Below are positions 5,727 through 26,572 of a DNA stretch of 64,000 bases, one piece after another. The translations under genes were made by a program, and so were the position numbers. The notes beneath the pieces were generated by a model that was not told the origin of the DNA, made no database searches, and saw only the letters and a program-made list of their open reading frames with translations. The number at the start of each line of letters is the position of its first letter. Positions within the stretch are counted from its first letter, which is position 1. Origin of the DNA: Algoriphagus lutimaris (lineage in GTDB: Bacteria; Bacteroidota; Bacteroidia; Cytophagales; Cyclobacteriaceae); the NCBI RefSeq assembly GCF_017051705.1, contig NZ_JAFIDJ010000002.1:702384-766383 (forward strand), given 5' to 3'.

Positions 5727-6905
5727 CTATTTCACAATCTTCCTGGGAATCGCCGAGGGCAACCTACTCAACATCTCATTATTCATAAGTTGAGTTACTT
5801 GAGTAAATGAGCTAATATTAATGGTATTGTTATTCTGTCTTCCAACTAACACCACTTCATCACCAACCTGAACACCCGGAATGTGGGACACATCCACCAT
5901 AAACAGATTCATATTGATCAATCCCACAATCTGAGCCTTTTTACCTTTAATCAGTACATGCCCTCGATTGGATTGGGCACGGGGATATCCGTTGGAATAG
6001 CCTAAGGGCATCACGGCCACTTTCATGTTTTGCGAAGCTTGGTAGGAAGTTCCATAGCCAATAAATTCGCCCGCATCCACATCTCTTACATCCATCACAT
6101 CAGTTTTCCAGGTAAAAATTCGTTTGAGTGCTCCATCTGATTGCTTCCCGATTTCCTGCAAATGGGAGTAATAAATATCTGGACTGGGCCAAAATCCATA
6201 CTGTGCTACTCCAATTCTCACCATGTCATACACGGTATCTTTGTAGGCCAAGGCGGCTGCAGAGCAAGCGATGTGTCGGATTTCAGGAAGCGTTTTCTTT
6301 TGTTGACATTGCTTGAGGAAACCTTTGAACCGTTCATGCTGAGCATTGATCTTGAAGAGATTTGAAAAATTCTCTGCTCCCCCAAAATGAGTACAAAGCC
6401 CCTTGAAGGCAATCTCCTCCGGATACTTCTTAAGGAAACTTAAAGTAGGAGCGAATTCCTTTTTGGTCATTCCGGTACGGTTGGCACCAGTTTCCACCTC
6501 AATATGCACTTTTGCTTGCTTTCCCACCTTTTTTGCCAACTCCAGCACCAGCGGTAGGCGCTCATAGTTGAACACATAAAATTCAATTTCATTCCGGATA
6601 GCCCATTCAATATCCTCATCATAGAGAATACCCATGATCATCACATCACTGACCTCTGATTTGGCTTCCAGAACTTCCTCCGCTTCAAAAGCTGAAGCAG
6701 TAGCAAAATGCCCTACTCCAGCTTTTTCGGCCATCTTTACAAAAGATCGAATGCCATGACCATAAGCATTCGCTTTGACCACAGAGGATATCCGAACACC
6801 CTCACCAACCTTTTTCCTGATGAAATTAATATTATTCGTTAGCGAGGATTGACTCAATTCTATTCTCGACGAATGTCTTACCATAATTTTGTTTGTTGAT
6901 TCCAT
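5727..6905 (-). CDS. alr: Alanine-racemase-like PLP enzyme
   Basis: A 392-residue fold-type III PLP enzyme. The N-terminal TIM barrel has the Schiff-base lysine in VVKANAYGHG (Lys44). Arg230 in VRIGVAQYG matches the Arg that contacts the PLP ring. The C-terminal beta domain has the opposite catalytic Tyr (Tyr284 in FIGYGTSYQ). The normally strict Met-Asp pair of the alanine racemase C-terminal motif is Met-Asn here (INMNLFMVDV, Asn333). It is the last gene of a minus-strand operon with a Cys/His/Asn-triad protein and an ATP-grasp ligase, and its start overlaps the gene before it by 28 bases. An ATG at 6884 is an alternative start. In many Bacteroidota the housekeeping racemase is fused to MurF, so this stand-alone copy may be specialised. 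Racemase fold: confident; substrate alanine: uncertain. Confidence 0.85.
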   Translation of the reverse strand: MESTNKIMVRHSSRIELSQSSLTNNINFIRKKVGEGVRISSVVKANAYGHGIRSFVKMAEKAGVGHFATASAFEAEEVLEAKSEVSDVMIMGILYDEDIEWAIRNEIEFYVFNYERLPLVLELAKKVGKQAKVHIEVETGANRTGMTKKEFAPTLSFLKKYPEEIAFKGLCTHFGGAENFSNLFKINAQHERFKGFLKQCQQKKTLPEIRHIACSAAALAYKDTVYDMVRIGVAQYGFWPSPDIYYSHLQEIGKQSDGALKRIFTWKTDVMDVRDVDAGEFIGYGTSYQASQNMKVAVMPLGYSNGYPRAQSNRGHVLIKGKKAQIVGLINMNLFMVDVSHIPGVQVGDEVVLVGRQNNNTINISSFTQVTQLMNNEMLSRLPSAIPRKIVK

Positions 6906-8866
6906 ACATACGATTTCCCCCAGCTTTCCCTACCCATTTTTTCCACCAGAATGAGCTCCTCTTGGGGCACCTCATTGAGCTTATTTCTCACATCCAAAGT
7001 ACTATAATGAAAGGCATAAACTCGCGCAGCAAAATGATGGAAAGGCAAGGATGATTCGCCCTGTTTTTCTCCTTGACCATGCACTGATGGCTTGATTCCC
7101 TGTCCCCAGTCCTGTCGGCCTTCGTTGTTTGGATTGAGAAAATAAGCCCGCAATTCACCGGCTTTGGTTTCATCAACCCTAAGAAGGGATACAGCGTGAA
7201 ACCCGATCATATCTCCCTTATTGCTCGTAATGAAAATTCCTACGGGGTTAGGGTAAACCATTTGTTGATTCCCATTGTAGTTAGGGTGAAAAGCCCCATA
7301 AAAGATTCGCAGGTAGCCTGGATAATCCATGATGGAATTGCTCAGATAATCGTAACAGGAAGCAAAGCCCACCTGAATCCACTGACCATACATCGCCGGA
7401 TTGACCCATTTGTGTGGGTCCTCCAGCCTTCCAGTGGATAGCCTCATCATTTCATTGTAAATCTTATCCAAGTGAGGAACCAATACCACAGAAACCACAT
7501 CCAAGTTGTAATCGAGCTGATCCACCAAGCCTTTCAATAGATTATTTGAAACCAAGTTTTGGTTTTCAAATCGCATGATCAGGTTGTTTTGGGTGGACAC
7601 GGTGATGATCATATCAATCAGTTTTGCAGGAGAATGCTGGCTCCACATACTGATTCCCCTCGCCGATTGGCAGGTAGGGTTATTCCCTTGACCTACCCCC
7701 AGCGGTTGTCCCAAAACCTTGATCGTGCCCCCAATCAAATATTGAAGAGCAGTAATCTCAGCATCTGGATCCGTTAAGGATTTCATGATCCTCTTCTCCA
7801 CTTGAGGATTTATTTTAATACGCCGAAGGTTTTCCAAGCCTATTCGAACAGCCCTTCTGGAAAATAGGTTTTTGCCCAACATCCTGGCCAAACCATAAAT
7901 GCATTGACAATTGTCCCAGCTTACTGTTTCCAAAATCAAGTTGGAGACCATCTCATGGAACTTCTCCCATTCGGCAATTCCCCGATCATTCAGGTCCAGA
8001 CAGATAGGAACCAAGTTTGGATTTTTCTCAACTATAAATCGCAGTAAGAGGGCATGATACCCACTCACCAATCCAGTGGCGTTCATATACTCCCCCATGG
8101 AAAGAGATTCCGATGCGAGTTCAGTTTCAGAGGCCTGATCTAAAAACTCTAGATATTCTTCTTTTCCTTCATGTAGTTTAGCTCCTTCGGATGGTGCGAA
8201 AAGCGCATCTATATAAATGCGAATCGCTTTATCTTTCTTAGTGGTACCTGAGGTATCAAACCTTCTGTTGACTAAGCTGATCAGTTCTCGAGCTTTTTGG
8301 GTCCGAATAGGTCGTTGCTCGCAAATCATCTGAACTTCATCTACCAACTTTCCATAGACCCCATTGAGGTCCATTTCAGACATGATAAAGCCAAAGAGAT
8401 TGAAGGCTTTTTTCAACTCCCGGTCCGACATCCGAACCCGGGTTTCCTCATTTGGCTCCCTTAGGGCAAATTCCAGATTATGCACAATGACTTCTTCTAG
8501 AAAGCTTTGCGCATCCTCTGCAGAAAGTAGCTCGTGGACATCCTCTCCTTTGGCATAACGAAGCATGCGCAGTTCGGATAGGGTTTCAAAACTAGAGGAG
8601 GGGTGCCCATATTTGAGCGTACCTTTCACTAAAAATGGCACCAGCTTATCAGGATCATTCCAGGAAGTCCCCTGAAAAAAGCCCGCTTGCTCCAGCTCGA
8701 CACTTTTGTGATAGAGGTAAGCAAGACCTGATCTTGTCAAACTCAAAATATCAATGTGGCTGGCTAACTTGGTAGCTTTCTCTTTCTTAGTGAGTGCTCC
8801 AGAGTCGATAAACTCCTGGAGACTTTGATCGAAATTATTAAATACCTTATCGGTCGTCAATCCCAT
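6878..8866 (-). CDS. Uncharacterised protein with possible Cys-His-Asn triad
   Basis: A 662-residue cytoplasmic protein (no signal peptide or membrane helix) that I cannot place in a named family. The first two thirds look mainly alpha-helical. The last third holds three blocks that together resemble a papain/transglutaminase-type active site: GNNPTCQSARGISMWSQ (Cys399), MIGFHAVSLLRVD (His557) and AYFLNPNNEGRQDWG (Asn578 or Asn580). Order and spacing Cys, His, Asn/Asp fit that fold. This is inference from motifs only. It lies between an ATP-grasp ligase (13-base gap upstream) and an alanine-racemase-like gene (28-base overlap downstream), so the three products probably act in one pathway, for example forming or trimming an amide or peptide product. 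Peptidase, amidase or acyl-transfer activity are all possible. Confidence 0.6.
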   Translation of the reverse strand: MGLTTDKVFNNFDQSLQEFIDSGALTKKEKATKLASHIDILSLTRSGLAYLYHKSVELEQAGFFQGTSWNDPDKLVPFLVKGTLKYGHPSSSFETLSELRMLRYAKGEDVHELLSAEDAQSFLEEVIVHNLEFALREPNEETRVRMSDRELKKAFNLFGFIMSEMDLNGVYGKLVDEVQMICEQRPIRTQKARELISLVNRRFDTSGTTKKDKAIRIYIDALFAPSEGAKLHEGKEEYLEFLDQASETELASESLSMGEYMNATGLVSGYHALLLRFIVEKNPNLVPICLDLNDRGIAEWEKFHEMVSNLILETVSWDNCQCIYGLARMLGKNLFSRRAVRIGLENLRRIKINPQVEKRIMKSLTDPDAEITALQYLIGGTIKVLGQPLGVGQGNNPTCQSARGISMWSQHSPAKLIDMIITVSTQNNLIMRFENQNLVSNNLLKGLVDQLDYNLDVVSVVLVPHLDKIYNEMMRLSTGRLEDPHKWVNPAMYGQWIQVGFASCYDYLSNSIMDYPGYLRIFYGAFHPNYNGNQQMVYPNPVGIFITSNKGDMIGFHAVSLLRVDETKAGELRAYFLNPNNEGRQDWGQGIKPSVHGQGEKQGESSLPFHHFAARVYAFHYSTLDVRNKLNEVPQEELILVEKMGRESWGKSYVWNQQTKLW

Positions 8867-8879
8867 TAATTACTTCAAA

Positions 8880-10103
8880 TTATACATAAAATTCTTCTTC
8901 CTCATAATGTTTTAGAAGCTCAGTCATCCGATCCGGATCCTCCCCTTTGAAATTGATGGTTCCAAAGTGATTACCAAATCCATTTCGGTCTGCACTTAAC
9001 TTCTGCCCTTCATAAGGTGCAATCAACGTATGCTCCACGAAATAAGGCTCATTGTTGAGGGACTCAGGAATTTCTAACTTGGAGAACTGACGTTTCTGTG
9101 GATAGATCATCACGTTTCCGTGGTAGTTTTTGGGTTTGAAATCCTTGGCAGGAAATATCTCATCCAACTCCTCTTCGGTGATGTTTGGATCATGGCTAAT
9201 CACAAAGGCAGCCAAGGCGTCAAATTCATAAGATTTAGAACATAATTCTAGAATATGCCCTCCTGGAATTCTACAGGCAGTTTCCCCGAAATTAAGCTCA
9301 TCTTTTTCAGTCAAGAACCACTCTGGGTGAACCATACCATATTCGATTCCAAAGATGTCTACCATCTTCTGAACTTCCTTATGGATCAAATCCCGCTTAC
9401 TTTCCAGGTATTTTCCTTCTGGGATAAAGTTGGAGTAGCCCAGTTTCACGTATTCAGTGATATTGAGGAATCTGATTTTACCTTTGTTGATAAATGCTTC
9501 ACAAGAAAACTCCCGACCTGGCAAATGACTTTCCGCCAAACATGGGAAATCGCTATCCTCACATTTTTCGTCTACATCACTCATAGAACGAAGTAATCTA
9601 TGGCCTACCGTACCAGCGGAGGCAAATGGCTTGATGTGAACCCAGCTATCTTCTTCTCCTTCCAACTGCAGGTTTGCCTGATTCAGCCGTTTCATAAAGG
9701 CCTTTACGCCTTCCTTGTTATACACTTCCTCAAAGAGCCCAACTCGTAAACCACCAATTAAGGCCTTTCTCTTCATCATGGCCTTATTACGGAATAAAAA
9801 TGCCCTATTAAGAACACGTGGGTCTCCACGGTAAATAGAGTTAAGAGCACCTGCCCATTCTACTGTTTCTTCGTATAAGGGAACTGCTACATCCGCATCG
9901 AATGCTTTAAGCTTTTCATAAAGGTCAAGGGAATTGGAGCTGTCACTCCACTCATCTAGTTGATATGGAAGAAATGGGATATTATTTTCTTGTGCATACG
10001 GTTCAAAATCTGGAAAGGAGACCACTACAAAGGGTCTTCCTGTTTTTTGCATACTTTCTATGACGGGCAAACTCCAGCCCATTAGTGCGAAACATTTAGC
10101 CAT
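8880..10103 (-). CDS. ATP-grasp carboxylate-amine ligase
   Basis: A 407-residue protein with an ATP-grasp fold. The N-terminal pre-grasp domain (about 1-110) is followed by WVHIKPFASAGTVGHRLL, holding the ATP-contacting Lys and the glycine-rich small loop. CLAESHLPGREFSCEAF is the central strand pair, and FGETACRIPGGH supplies the Mg-binding Glu and Arg normally read as 'ExNxRxGG'. This arrangement resembles ligases such as L-amino acid ligases, carnosine synthase and the D-Ala-D-Ala ligase superfamily, which join a carboxylate to an amine through an acyl phosphate. It is the first gene of a three-gene minus-strand operon with a possible Cys-triad enzyme and a racemase-like PLP enzyme. Substrates are unknown. 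The start ATG at 10103 follows a structured leader. Confidence 0.8.
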   Translation of the reverse strand: MAKCFALMGWSLPVIESMQKTGRPFVVVSFPDFEPYAQENNIPFLPYQLDEWSDSSNSLDLYEKLKAFDADVAVPLYEETVEWAGALNSIYRGDPRVLNRAFLFRNKAMMKRKALIGGLRVGLFEEVYNKEGVKAFMKRLNQANLQLEGEEDSWVHIKPFASAGTVGHRLLRSMSDVDEKCEDSDFPCLAESHLPGREFSCEAFINKGKIRFLNITEYVKLGYSNFIPEGKYLESKRDLIHKEVQKMVDIFGIEYGMVHPEWFLTEKDELNFGETACRIPGGHILELCSKSYEFDALAAFVISHDPNITEEELDEIFPAKDFKPKNYHGNVMIYPQKRQFSKLEIPESLNNEPYFVEHTLIAPYEGQKLSADRNGFGNHFGTINFKGEDPDRMTELLKHYEEEEFYV

Positions 10104-22357: not shown

Positions 22358-24022
22358 ATGCTTCAAAACCTACTTACATTTCTAACCTTGGTATCTCCGG
22401 TTGTCTTTATATTGACAGCAATTGTATCTTGGTTCCAACCGGGAATTCGACCATTTTTTCTTAAAAAATTGGCTACGGCTGCTTCTATCATAAGTATTTC
22501 CATCGCCGCTTTAAGCGGTTTTTTTGTAGCCAATTACTCCTTGTTGGAATCTCCTTTTTATGGAATAGCAGATTTGGGATTCAGTATTAGATTGGATGCG
22601 CTGAGTGTAATTATGCTGAATATGATTGCCTTATTAGGATTTATTGTGATCAGATTTAGCTTGAATTACTTAGATGGTGATTCCCGGCATGGAACATTTA
22701 TAGGAAGATTGGCCGCAGCCATTGCCTCTGTTCAGCTCTTGGTCTTATCAGGAAACCTAGGAATACTATTTATTTCCTGGGTACTCACTAGCATGTCCCT
22801 TCATAGATTGCTGGTATTTTACAAGGAAAGACCTGGTGCCATCATCGCTGCCCGTAAAAAATTCATTGTGGCACGACTTGGAGATGTCAGCCTATTGGCA
22901 GCCGCTATTCTCCTATATTCTCAATTTGGGACTGGAAACTTAGAAGTACTTTTCCAAACGATAAAAAGTAATCTTGCTACCGGAATCTCCATGCCCGGGA
23001 TCGAGCTGGTTGCAGTACTTTTAGCATCAGCAGCTATCCTGAAATCCGCTCAATTCCCTACTCATGGGTGGTTGATTGAAGTGATGGAAACCCCCACTCC
23101 TGTATCTGCACTCCTACATGCAGGATTACTCAATGCAGGTCCATTTCTGATTATTCGAATGGCCTTTGTAATGGATGCAAGTACTTATGCTTCAGCGATC
23201 TTAATAGGGATTGGAGGATTTACCGCACTTTTTGCTTCGGTCGTTTTCCTTACCCAAACATCTGTCAAAACAGCCTTGGGATATTCAAGTGTGGCACATA
23301 TGGGCTTTAGCCTGATGACTTGTGGTTTGGGGGTTTATCCTGCCGCGATGCTTCACTTAGTATCGCACTCCTTCTATAAAGCTCATTCTTTCCTATCCTC
23401 GGGAAGTGTAATCGAGGTAATCAGAGCTTCAAATGTTATTAACTACAAACGAATAGGAAGCCCAATAAGAATTTTAATGGGTGCCCTTCTAGCTTTGGTT
23501 TTATATTCAGGTTTTGCCATGCTTTGGGGTATAGATCCGCAAAAAGAACTATCCTTACTTGCCATAGGAGCAATCATCATCTTGGGACTGACCAGACTCT
23601 TTACCTCTGCGATAGATTCGAATGGGGGTATGAAGCTGATCTCAAGAGCAATTGCTTTATCTATGCTTGTTACCTTGTCTTTCTTCACCCTTGAATCAGG
23701 TGCGCACTTCCTGCTTTCTTCCCAAGTTCCTGAACTAACTCAACCCAATCTATTTGAAAGCATCTTATTGGGCATCATGTTGATTGCCTTTGGAATCACA
23801 GTGTTCATTCAAATCCTTGCTCCTACTCTTTCCTCAAACCCTGCCTACTTGGCTATGTCAGTTCACATTAGAAATGGTCTATACATCAATACAATATTTG
23901 ACAGAATGGTAAGATCACTTTATACGCATAAACCTTTGCAGCATCCAGCTTTGATTTCAAAGTCTGTTCGGCAAAAGTCTAGACAAGAGGAAACTTTGGA
24001 AAAAACTCTTGCAGAAGCTTAA
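22358..24022 (+). CDS. dabB: DabB, membrane subunit of DAB inorganic-carbon uptake
   Basis: A 554-residue polytopic membrane protein related to the NuoL/MrpA proton-channel subunits. The core shows the family segment SAQFPTHGWLIEVMETPTPV followed by SALLHAG (about 228-255) and about 13 or more hydrophobic helices. On its own this would be called an NADH-quinone oxidoreductase L-like protein. The neighbouring DabA (DUF2309) gene 15 bases downstream identifies it as DabB, which couples the cation gradient to DabA-driven carbon dioxide hydration. The pair works as an energised, vectorial carbonic anhydrase that traps bicarbonate in the cytoplasm. The C-terminal 60 residues are soluble and basic. 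Confidence 0.9.
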   Translation: MLQNLLTFLTLVSPVVFILTAIVSWFQPGIRPFFLKKLATAASIISISIAALSGFFVANYSLLESPFYGIADLGFSIRLDALSVIMLNMIALLGFIVIRFSLNYLDGDSRHGTFIGRLAAAIASVQLLVLSGNLGILFISWVLTSMSLHRLLVFYKERPGAIIAARKKFIVARLGDVSLLAAAILLYSQFGTGNLEVLFQTIKSNLATGISMPGIELVAVLLASAAILKSAQFPTHGWLIEVMETPTPVSALLHAGLLNAGPFLIIRMAFVMDASTYASAILIGIGGFTALFASVVFLTQTSVKTALGYSSVAHMGFSLMTCGLGVYPAAMLHLVSHSFYKAHSFLSSGSVIEVIRASNVINYKRIGSPIRILMGALLALVLYSGFAMLWGIDPQKELSLLAIGAIIILGLTRLFTSAIDSNGGMKLISRAIALSMLVTLSFFTLESGAHFLLSSQVPELTQPNLFESILLGIMLIAFGITVFIQILAPTLSSNPAYLAMSVHIRNGLYINTIFDRMVRSLYTHKPLQHPALISKSVRQKSRQEETLEKTLAEA

Positions 24023-24037
24023 ACTAAGTGTAGAAAT

Positions 24038-26572
24038 ATGCAATCCGCTAAAAGTCATCAAATGAACCATCTCAAAACTTCTACCATGAATACACTCGAA
24101 AATCTGGATCAAGACCAAAAACTCCTGATGAAAACCATGAAAACAGCAGGAAAGAAAATCGCTCCTGTCTGGCCTTTGGAGAATTTTGTAGCCGTAAACC
24201 CCTACCTTGGATTTACTGAAAAAAGATTTGAACAGGTTGCACATGAATTGGCTACAGCGGGAGATATACAAATGACCCTACCTAGCTCTTTTTACCTCCA
24301 AAAGATCCAGGAAGGAAGTTTGAAAAAGGAAGACGTTCTCCAGGTTTTGAAGCATAGAAAAAGCAAACAGGGATATAAGGAATTCATTCAATCAGTAGAA
24401 AATAACAGGGGTTCCAATGAATCCATGATTTATGTTTCCACGGTGGCAGACTTAGCCACGCAAGTCACCCAAAAGGACTGGAACCGTTTCGTCACCTCCA
24501 GAATTTCTCAATGGGCAGCATCTTACTTCGATAAAGGTCAGGCGATCTGGATTGCTGCAGATCAACAGGTAAGTATTTTCAAAGCTTGGAAAACTGAAGC
24601 CCAATTGGACAAAACTCCAGACCTGAGTGGTTTAACTAATTTTAGAAAAATTATCCAATCTTTTCCTGATCATCCGATCCAAGCTGCTCAGAAAGCAATT
24701 GAAATACTTGGGATACCTGCTGATCAAACCTCATTTTACTTTCATCGACTCCTACTGAAACAAGGAGGATGGGCAGCTCATGTAGCTAGGTTAGATTGGG
24801 ATAAACAATTAGCAGGAGAAAAAGATGGGATGATCGTAGAATTTCTTGCTGTCCTGATTTGCTGGGAAGCTGCTCTATTGAAAAGCCTAAAAGGGTTTGA
24901 AATCGTACCTTTGTGGGAAGATCTAAAAGATCAATGGATAGGAAGTGAAGAGGACTTGGAAGTCAACAAGCAACTCACTGAAAATCTGATTCTTCAAGAA
25001 GCATTTGATTTGGCTACTCAACGAAGGCTGATAGAGAAGTTTAAAAATATTCAGGGCGGAAATAAATCCAAGAAAGAGCAGCCTAAGGCTCAGGCGGTAT
25101 TTTGCATCGATGTAAGATCCGAAGTCTTCCGAAGAAATTTGGAATTAGTGGACCAGTCGATCGAAACCCTGGGATTTGCGGGATTTTTCGGATTCCCGAT
25201 CAACTACATTCCCTTAGGACATCAAAGCGGAGAGGCACAATGTCCGGTTTTATTGAAAACAGGGCCAACAATTGAGGAGCAGATCCCTGATCCTGAAATC
25301 CATGAGAAAGCGGTCAAAGACCGTATTTTGTCTCATCAAATTGGTAATGTATGGAAGTCTTTCAAATCCGGAGCGGTCACCTGCTTCAGCTTTGTGAGCC
25401 CCATGGGTATATCTTATCTACCCAAAATCTTCACAGATTCCTTTCGATGGACGAGACCGGTTCCCCATCCAGATAAGCAAGGGATTTCTTCCAGCATTTT
25501 AAAAAGTAAAACAGTCCAATTGGAACCTCATTACTATGAAGCTGACTCGGCAGGGATTCCACTTGATCAACAAATTCAGATGGCCAAAAACGCCTTAAAA
25601 GCCATGTCACTTACAGATGATTTTGGAAAATTCGTCATGATAGTCGGGCATGGCTCCAGTACTGTCAATAACCCTCATGCCACAGGATATGATTGTGGGG
25701 CTTGTGGAGGACATACAGGCGAAGCCAATGCCAAAGTAGCGGCAGCCGTGTTAAATAACCGGGAAGTAAGAACCGGCTTACTCCAAGAAAACATCTTCAT
25801 CCCTGTTCAGACCATTTTCCTGGCCTGTTTACATGATACTACTACTGACGAAGTGACCATTTTTAATGAACAAGTGGTGCCGTCCGAAAGAGCACAAGAA
25901 TTGGAAGATCTGAAAAATTCCCTTAAAAATGCAGGGAAAGCTTCCAGAACAGAGCGGGCGCTCCGAATGTCAAGTCAAAAGAATTCAAGTGTGGAAAAGA
26001 TGATTTTTGCAAAAAGTAAAGATTGGTCAGAAACCCGACCAGAGTGGGGATTGGCTGGCTGCTCCACATTCGTGGTCGCTAACCGGGAGAAAACAAAAAA
26101 TCTGGACCTAGAAGGAAAATCATTCCTCCAATCTTATGATTGGAAAAAAGATCAAGGCTTCTCAATTCTCGAATTGATCATGACCGCACCAATGGTAGTG
26201 ACCAGTTGGATCAACCTCCAATATTATGGATCAACAGTGGACAACAAGCACCACGGGTCTGGTAACAAAACCTTACACAATGTCACTGCTGGTCTGGGAG
26301 TTTTAGAAGGATTCTCCGGGGATTTAAGAGTAGGGCTTCCCTTACAAGCAATCCATGATGGAGAGAATTATCAACATGAGCCCAATCGCTTACAGGTGAT
26401 TATTCATGCGCCTCTTGAAGCTATCAACGGGATCTTAGAAAAGCATCCCTCTGTAAAAAATCTATGTGATAATGAATGGATATTTCTGATGGCCATGGAT
26501 GAGGAAGGCTACATCTCTGACCGTTATATGGGTAACCTAAAATGGCAAAGCTTAACCCAACATGTGGCCTAA
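24038..26572 (+). CDS. dabA: DabA, zinc carbonic-anhydrase-like subunit of DAB
   Basis: An 844-residue protein of the DUF2309/DabA family. The zinc ligands known for the Halothiobacillus DabA are Cys, Asp, His and Cys. They are matched here by Cys356 and Asp358 in FCIDVRSE, His538 in VGHGSS and Cys553 in GYDCGACGGH. The His-Cys spacing of 15 residues equals that of the characterised enzyme. Upstream ENFVAVNPYLGF is another family hallmark. The ATG at 24038 is used, although a later ATG at 24089 (MNTLENLDQD) may be the true start. DabA sits on the cytoplasmic face of DabB and converts carbon dioxide to bicarbonate. A strong terminator follows. Confidence 0.92.
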   Translation: MQSAKSHQMNHLKTSTMNTLENLDQDQKLLMKTMKTAGKKIAPVWPLENFVAVNPYLGFTEKRFEQVAHELATAGDIQMTLPSSFYLQKIQEGSLKKEDVLQVLKHRKSKQGYKEFIQSVENNRGSNESMIYVSTVADLATQVTQKDWNRFVTSRISQWAASYFDKGQAIWIAADQQVSIFKAWKTEAQLDKTPDLSGLTNFRKIIQSFPDHPIQAAQKAIEILGIPADQTSFYFHRLLLKQGGWAAHVARLDWDKQLAGEKDGMIVEFLAVLICWEAALLKSLKGFEIVPLWEDLKDQWIGSEEDLEVNKQLTENLILQEAFDLATQRRLIEKFKNIQGGNKSKKEQPKAQAVFCIDVRSEVFRRNLELVDQSIETLGFAGFFGFPINYIPLGHQSGEAQCPVLLKTGPTIEEQIPDPEIHEKAVKDRILSHQIGNVWKSFKSGAVTCFSFVSPMGISYLPKIFTDSFRWTRPVPHPDKQGISSSILKSKTVQLEPHYYEADSAGIPLDQQIQMAKNALKAMSLTDDFGKFVMIVGHGSSTVNNPHATGYDCGACGGHTGEANAKVAAAVLNNREVRTGLLQENIFIPVQTIFLACLHDTTTDEVTIFNEQVVPSERAQELEDLKNSLKNAGKASRTERALRMSSQKNSSVEKMIFAKSKDWSETRPEWGLAGCSTFVVANREKTKNLDLEGKSFLQSYDWKKDQGFSILELIMTAPMVVTSWINLQYYGSTVDNKHHGSGNKTLHNVTAGLGVLEGFSGDLRVGLPLQAIHDGENYQHEPNRLQVIIHAPLEAINGILEKHPSVKNLCDNEWIFLMAMDEEGYISDRYMGNLKWQSLTQHVA

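Follow-up and report, generated by a model that had tools for sequence, protein, structure and literature searches.

Genes and conserved residues at the locus

The stretch of DNA analysed here, referred to as the window, comprises 64,000 nucleotides of the genome of Algoriphagus lutimaris. On its minus strand it holds three closely spaced genes, here called ATPG, MID and RAC, which form a tight operon that may serve the synthesis of a small ornithine-derived compound. An earlier note on this DNA, made from the sequence alone, had described a tight three-gene set with a gap of 13 bases (ATPG/MID) and an overlap of 28 bases (MID/RAC), and all three open reading frames were recovered as described. 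The features are as follows.

8880..10103, minus strand: ATPG, ATP-grasp protein of 407 residues, predicted amino acid ligase encoded by the first gene of the operon
6878..8866, minus strand: MID, 662 residues, family unnamed, predicted cysteine acyltransferase; the N-terminal residues (about 1-375) are of no recognised fold
5727..6905, minus strand: RAC, pyridoxal phosphate (PLP) enzyme of the alanine racemase fold, 392 residues, predicted racemase for a substrate that exceeds alanine in size or polarity
7688..7690, minus strand: codon for MID Gln393, proposed oxyanion-hole residue, invariant in 66/66 sequences
7670..7672, minus strand: codon for MID Cys399, proposed nucleophile, invariant in 66/66
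7196..7198, minus strand: codon for MID His557, proposed base, invariant in 66/66
7127..7135, minus strand: codons for MID Asn578-Pro579-Asn580, proposed third member, invariant in 66/66
5778..5780, minus strand: codon for RAC Asn376, equivalent of Tyr354 in Bacillus alanine racemase

The order of transcription is ATPG, MID, RAC, and the genes flanking the trio are located on the plus strand. If RAC starts at its second methionine, where the reading frame calls of several relatives begin, the overlap with MID shrinks to 7 bases.

ATPG is predicted to be an ATP-grasp amide ligase, as had been supposed, judged by its best sequence match in the PDB, 4wd3, which is an L-amino acid ligase (E 8.6e-9, residues 62-312). 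Its residues Glu261, Glu274 and Arg278 align with the metal/ATP motif of 4wd3 (Glu...Glu-x-Ala-x-Arg) and, like Lys158, do not vary among 87 distinct relatives. We take 4wd3 to be RizA, an arginine-accepting enzyme and kin of BacD and BL00235. Beyond this match and motif ATPG departs from the L-amino acid ligases: it stays far below curated cut-offs, always accompanies MID where the contig allows and is linked to ornithine genes. With Pfam ATP-grasp_4 it reaches 19.9 bits (E 5.8e-4; cut-off 27) and its NCBIfam subfamily matches are sub-cut-off, too; the relatives score 26.0 bits in Halomonas, still under the cut-off, and 37.6 bits in one Bacillus locus (L055), which is over it.

For the middle protein the earlier note could name no family. 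In agreement with this, MID gave no match in Pfam or NCBIfam (E up to 1) nor in PHROGs or PADLOC (E up to 0.1), only chance matches in a single-sequence search of the PDB (E 0.58 to 1.3), and none up to E 10 when profiles of the whole family or of its C-terminal part were run against the PDB. A Pfam scan of the 66 sequences of the family alignment returned 53 families, each in at most five members, the best of which (E 0.0012, in one member) is taken as chance. The transglutaminase core PF01841 has three matches in the window's genome, all on contig C1 and none at MID, which lies on contig C8.

The residues Gln393, Cys399, Gln400, Ser401, Arg403, Asp456, His485, Asn489, His557, Asn578, Asn580, Trp587 and Glu600 are invariant in all 66 sequences, including the Cys, His and two Asn residues singled out before. 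Their order is kept as well: Gln393 is followed six residues on by Cys399, then by His557 within a His-Ala-Val motif and then by Asn-Pro-Asn. Papain has the same pattern, with Gln19 and Cys25 spaced as Gln-x5-Cys and followed by His and Asn. From these residues and the way they are ordered, MID is a putative papain-like thiol enzyme. The resemblance to papain noticed earlier gains the Gln393-x5-Cys399 spacing. In profile comparison, hhalign alignments of the C-terminal part with relatives' sequences gave P 0.057 for peptidase C1 and P 0.29 for the transglutaminase core, neither being significant. The best local C1 match sets His557 on the C1 histidine (His-Ala-Val) and Trp587-Gly on the C1 Trp-Gly. 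MID shares with clan CA the order of Gln-x5-Cys, His and Asn as well as the His-Ala-Val motif, and differs by the lack of a significant PF00112 or PF01841 profile match and of any Pfam match, and by its large extra N-terminal part. Clan CA acyltransferases include enzymes of the BtrH type and of the phytochelatin synthase type.

RAC carries both Ala_racemase domains (N and C; PF01168, PF00842) far over cut-off and scores 285 bits with TIGR00492, which supports its earlier assignment as a racemase-like PLP enzyme; models of the serine racemase VanT match below their cut-off. The RAC alignment has 88 rows (63 distinct sequences), of which 82 come from clusters, and includes 3 distinct non-cluster paralogues. 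The PLP lysine Lys44, the catalytic Tyr284 and Arg143 are kept in 88/88 rows, as in alanine racemases including Lyr and Bar. The position of Bacillus Tyr354, anchored through Gln360 of AlrTt, never holds Tyr in the 82 cluster rows (Asn 75, Gln 4, Ala 1, Thr 1; the one remaining row, with Gly, is gapped and unreliable); all 3 paralogues compared have Tyr there. The window's genome encodes three proteins of this fold including RAC, and the two others, one of them a MurF fusion, keep the Tyr. This inner-gate Tyr limits substrate size in alanine racemases, the lysine-preferring Lyr having Thr and Bar having Ala instead (PMC3485190, in excerpt). AlrTt, with Gln at the gate, turns over L-Ser at 28% relative activity, a value sharply lowered by Tyr at this position (PMC4517790, in excerpt). 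Because the gate Tyr, with its published role, is replaced in the cluster members by Asn, Gln, Ala or Thr, RAC is probably not restricted to alanine, and ornithine and serine are both candidate substrates. From Lyr and Bar it differs in that the Asn following their Arg is Thr144 in RAC (same excerpt of PMC3485190).

These data also bear on a somewhat unlikely alternative, in which RAC makes D-alanine or D-serine, ornithine stays in the L-form and the product is a dipeptide of L-ornithine and a D-residue. Alanine racemases are the closest kin of RAC, which also has the sub-cut-off VanT matches, Asn or Gln in place of Tyr permits serine (for Gln according to the excerpt of PMC4517790), and the Bacilli described below do without RAC, so that a D-residue would be optional. 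D-alanine, however, is otherwise supplied, as the two other racemase-fold genes keep the Tyr.

Distribution and conservation of gene order

One genome per species was scanned for MID, and the best 80 of 90 encoding stretches were used for locus counts. They span Bacteroidota, Balneolaceae, one metagenome-assembled genome of Gemmatimonadetes and Bacilli (Bacillus, Planococcus, Paenibacillus, Lysinibacillus and others); one record that bears the title Chryseobacterium shows the arrangement of Bacilli and may be mislabelled. Halomonas has a diverged copy of MID, preceded by ATPG and without RAC. In the Halomonas record (L086:9845-11929) the match to MID splits into two frames near its end, and this copy may be damaged or mis-sequenced. 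Within the window's phylum MID is rare, being found in 4 of 395 genomes of a phylum sample, 14 of 341 of an order sample and 5 of 58 of a sample of relatives. Since its spread is patchy, horizontal transfer or repeated loss is suggested.

In 76 of the 80 loci ATPG is found upstream of MID on the same strand, at a distance of 11 to 559 bases; in the remaining four MID is truncated by the contig end or lies less than 400 bases from it. Such an arrangement would not arise by chance. So ATPG and MID work together. RAC occurs in 49 of the 50 non-Bacilli loci, L051 being the exception, and in none of the 30 Bacilli-type loci, two of which have less than 1,500 bases of room 3' of MID. The conserved core is therefore the ATPG-MID pair, and the racemase is a Bacteroidota-type addition. 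With regard to the trio as a unit, the earlier view is retained for Bacteroidota-type loci, where RAC accompanies the pair in 49 of 50, and has to be given up for Bacilli and Halomonas, which carry the pair without RAC. Routine separation of the three genes, named beforehand as evidence against such a unit, was not seen in the Bacteroidota-type loci.

A second copy of MID is found in 9 of the 30 Bacilli-type loci; it keeps all invariant residues and, in the 8 loci compared, shares 33 to 40% identity with the first. In 25 of these 30 loci a GNAT gene is located divergently beside ATPG, with Pfam scores from weak to just over cut-off. Apart from the core and the arg genes discussed below, a few families recur among the neighbours within one lineage, and only two small clusters, of 5 and 4 loci, are shared by both groups. 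In the 80 loci no family of transporters was found repeatedly next to the core genes in both groups. Directly 3' of RAC in L012, L014, L122, L119 and L120 lies a small protein gene (250-280 residues, no significant Pfam match); by eye its product apparently has one membrane helix and a coiled coil, those of L119 and L120 resembling the others only loosely.

Some functions were considered and dropped: a defence role, as PADLOC gave no match and no defence family recurs beside the cluster, and siderophore or cell-wall roles, as no such gene family recurs there.

Linkage to ornithine synthesis

Beyond the core, arg genes are the sole families that occur in at least nine loci and in both groups. 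One or more of argB, argC, argD and argJ lie in the flanks of 15 of the 80 loci (argJ in 12/80), three of Bacilli type among them (L065, L069, L079). Contiguous sets read ATPG-MID-RAC-argB-argD-argC-argJ in L092, likewise with one small intervening gene in L122, and argB-argD-argC-argJ-ATPG-MID-RAC in L100. Between two copies of MID, L079 has argJ alone and L069 has argC, argJ, argB and argD. In L021, L022, L092, L100 and L122 the operon begins or ends with argJ, and argF, argG and argH were not seen nearby.

The association was also examined by seeking ArgJ genome-wide (PF01960). In the order sample it is present in 17 of 341 genomes, namely in 12 of 14 with MID versus 5 of 327 without (Fisher 1.3e-16). 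Shared descent is corrected for only by counting genera, which gives 10 of 11 MID genera versus none of 110 others (Fisher 8.7e-14). In the relatives sample, which overlaps the order sample, ArgJ occurs in 5/5 MID genomes and 3/53 others.

The window's genome has its argB-argD-argC-argJ operon (L091) 460 kb from the trio, and its genes pass the curated NCBIfam cut-offs for the ArgJ, ArgC, ArgB and ArgD families. It also encodes an ArgF resembling N-acetylornithine carbamoyltransferase, 73% identical to that of the Cyclobacterium locus L034, and such an acetylornithine-type ArgF is found in 15 of 19 MID genomes tested. By the acetylornithine-type carbamoyltransferase route arginine is made without free ornithine, and ArgJ releases free ornithine. 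Therefore, the ornithine from ArgJ most likely feeds something besides arginine, the best candidate being the ATPG-MID pair. The linked genes resemble the ornithine arm (argBDCJ) of arginine synthesis by family; they differ from it in that the argBDCJ genes of the window's genome lie apart from the acetylornithine-type ArgF gene, on a different contig. As a separate observation, the genes converging on argBDCJ in this genome (L091:3954-8795) resemble hydroxyproline breakdown genes (DapA-like, aldehyde dehydrogenase, proline-racemase-like epimerase and FAD oxidase).

Several findings weigh against free ornithine as the feedstock or against the role given to MID. As many as 65 of the 80 loci have no arg gene in the available flank, some flanks being short. 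In the order sample 5 of the 17 ArgJ genomes lack MID, and 2 of the 14 MID genomes (G720 and G731, one genus) lack ArgJ; over the order and relatives samples ArgJ is found without MID in G019, G021, G028, G675, G617, G725 and G742. In the phylum sample ArgJ is so frequent (155/395 genomes, mostly outside the class) that its presence in 4/4 MID genomes, one of them with a weak MID match, is uninformative. Furthermore, 4 of the 19 MID genomes have no acetylornithine-type ArgF, and ArgJ may serve plain arginine synthesis there. The trio faces an ordinary arginine operon in Cyclobacterium L034/L035 and in L126; in L034 and L035, which are two of the 15 arg-flanked loci, the opposing operon has argG and the acetylornithine-type argF, and in these three loci arginine or acetylornithine could be the substrate. 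For MID, the comparison with peptidase C1 is not significant.

The idea that arginine or acetylornithine rather than free ornithine is used, with ATPG as an Arg-Xaa ligase like its nearest solved relative, is distinctly unlikely. It can draw on the three loci just mentioned and on the nearest PDB sequence being the L-amino acid ligase 4wd3, presumably RizA with arginine as substrate. The enriched gene, however, is the one for ArgJ, which yields free ornithine, in lineages that mostly possess the acetylornithine-type ArgF (15/19), and the five argJ-bounded operons show no argF, argG or argH nearby.

The ornithine racemase Orr was dropped as a MID-linked gene: Orr-like genes are present in 19/19 MID genomes of Bacteroidota, but also in 14 of 16 genomes of the same genera without MID. 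Among Bacilli such a gene was strong in 1 of 29 genomes, and no Orr match was over cut-off. Two Orr-like genes stand in contexts of their own. In Bacillus thermotolerans, whose genome has two ATPG-MID loci (L080, L070), one (L080:224-1099; NF040742, 316 bits, sub-cut-off) lies about 5.5 kb before ATPG. In one MID genome (G678; L132:92-9821) an operon of a sodium:solute symporter, GNAT, M20 deacylase, Alr-like and Orr-like genes and argB-argD-argC-argJ represents a second, separate ornithine-linked set, its M20 deacylase being DoeB2-like below cut-off.

Proposed pathway and its relation to known systems

From the gene order and its conservation, the invariant residues and the arg linkage we infer the following chemical steps and product. 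The operon would yield a small cytoplasmic amide or dipeptide derived from ornithine, a proposal to which we assign a probability of roughly 0.45. Ornithine would come from de novo synthesis by ArgB, ArgD, ArgC and ArgJ, whose genes adjoin the pair in some species and in others, as in the window's case, are located elsewhere in the genome. Judged by its family, ATPG would convert a carboxylate via an acyl phosphate into an amide, with ornithine as the simplest choice for one partner. MID may then form a thioacyl intermediate on Cys399, assisted by His557 and Asn578 or Asn580, as their conservation would have it, and either move the acyl group to a second amine or close or trim the first product. 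In Bacteroidota RAC would invert a building block, which given the loss of the gating Tyr may be either ornithine or an amino acid that is small and polar. The product is likely to be cytoplasmic, because ATPG, MID and RAC have no signal sequence evident by eye and no transporter recurs in both groups. Where the earlier note spoke of a D-amino-acid amide or peptide, its amide ligase and racemase-fold enzyme are borne out and ornithine is added as the probable substrate.

For MID, acyl transfer is more likely than proteolysis, given that its neighbours are an ATP-using ligase and ornithine genes. Enzymes with Cys, His and Asn are often hydrolases, which would fit MID as a protease, amidase or other degrading enzyme in an operon that recycles an ornithine amide. 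This is improbable in view of the linkage to the biosynthetic argBDCJ genes, of the ATP-consuming ligase in the same operon and of the absence of any recurrent degradative gene near the cluster.

A bolder form of the ornithine amide proposal is a charge-masked ornithine derivative which accumulates at high salt. Known solutes for comparison are N-delta-acetylornithine and N-acetylglutaminylglutamine amide. Judging by the record titles, many of the 80 loci presumably come from marine, soda-lake or halotolerant groups, an impression rather than a count. An MscS-like channel gene immediately follows argJ in L092 and RAC in L015, and another is located two genes away from MID in Halomonas L086; together with the saline names these genes give a weak hint. 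The divergent GNAT gene of most Bacilli-type loci and the lack of a shared transporter family would agree with such a solute, and N-delta-acetylornithine is reported from aerobic Firmicutes (PMC2329653, in excerpt). This role nevertheless is doubtful, as a channel gene is near in three loci only and other soluble roles fit equally. We also count against it that several Bacilli carriers (Lysinibacillus, Neobacillus and Peribacillus) are not known to be salt specialists. A little less probable still is the whole generalisation, a class of compatible solutes or cytoplasmic peptides derived from ornithine and not described before, made by an ATP-grasp ligase and the papain-like MID as a new acyltransferase family, with MID duplicated in some Bacilli. 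The genes would have spread horizontally between Bacteroidota, Bacilli, Halomonas and other carriers, and in the Bacteroidota version a racemase without its alanine gate would add a D-residue.

Amidoligase gene neighbourhoods were reportedly surveyed by Iyer and colleagues in 2009. Among the titles and abstract starts listed for open-licence papers, none describes the pairing of ATPG with MID, the MID family or its tie to ornithine. Closest in theme are non-ribosomal peptide sets with an ATP-grasp ligase, a papain-like acyltransferase and ornithine-generating genes (PMC2922099, in excerpt); these differ in being aminoacyl-tRNA-synthetase-like systems, and the excerpt does not describe the ATPG-MID pair. 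The parts are of known kinds; what may be new is how they are combined, along with the MID family and its link to ornithine. MID matters as a protein family of about 660 residues that no database names, whose putative active-site pattern does not vary between two distant phyla and which goes with one particular ligase. With free ornithine as the likely feedstock, the question of its function can be put directly, namely which ornithine amide the pair makes. If the product is an osmolyte, these would be genes for a type of solute about whose synthesis little is known; otherwise MID would still represent a new acyltransferase family for ATP-grasp chemistry.

Elsewhere in the window (22358-26572), two neighbouring genes resemble the DabB/DabA pair for uptake of inorganic carbon.

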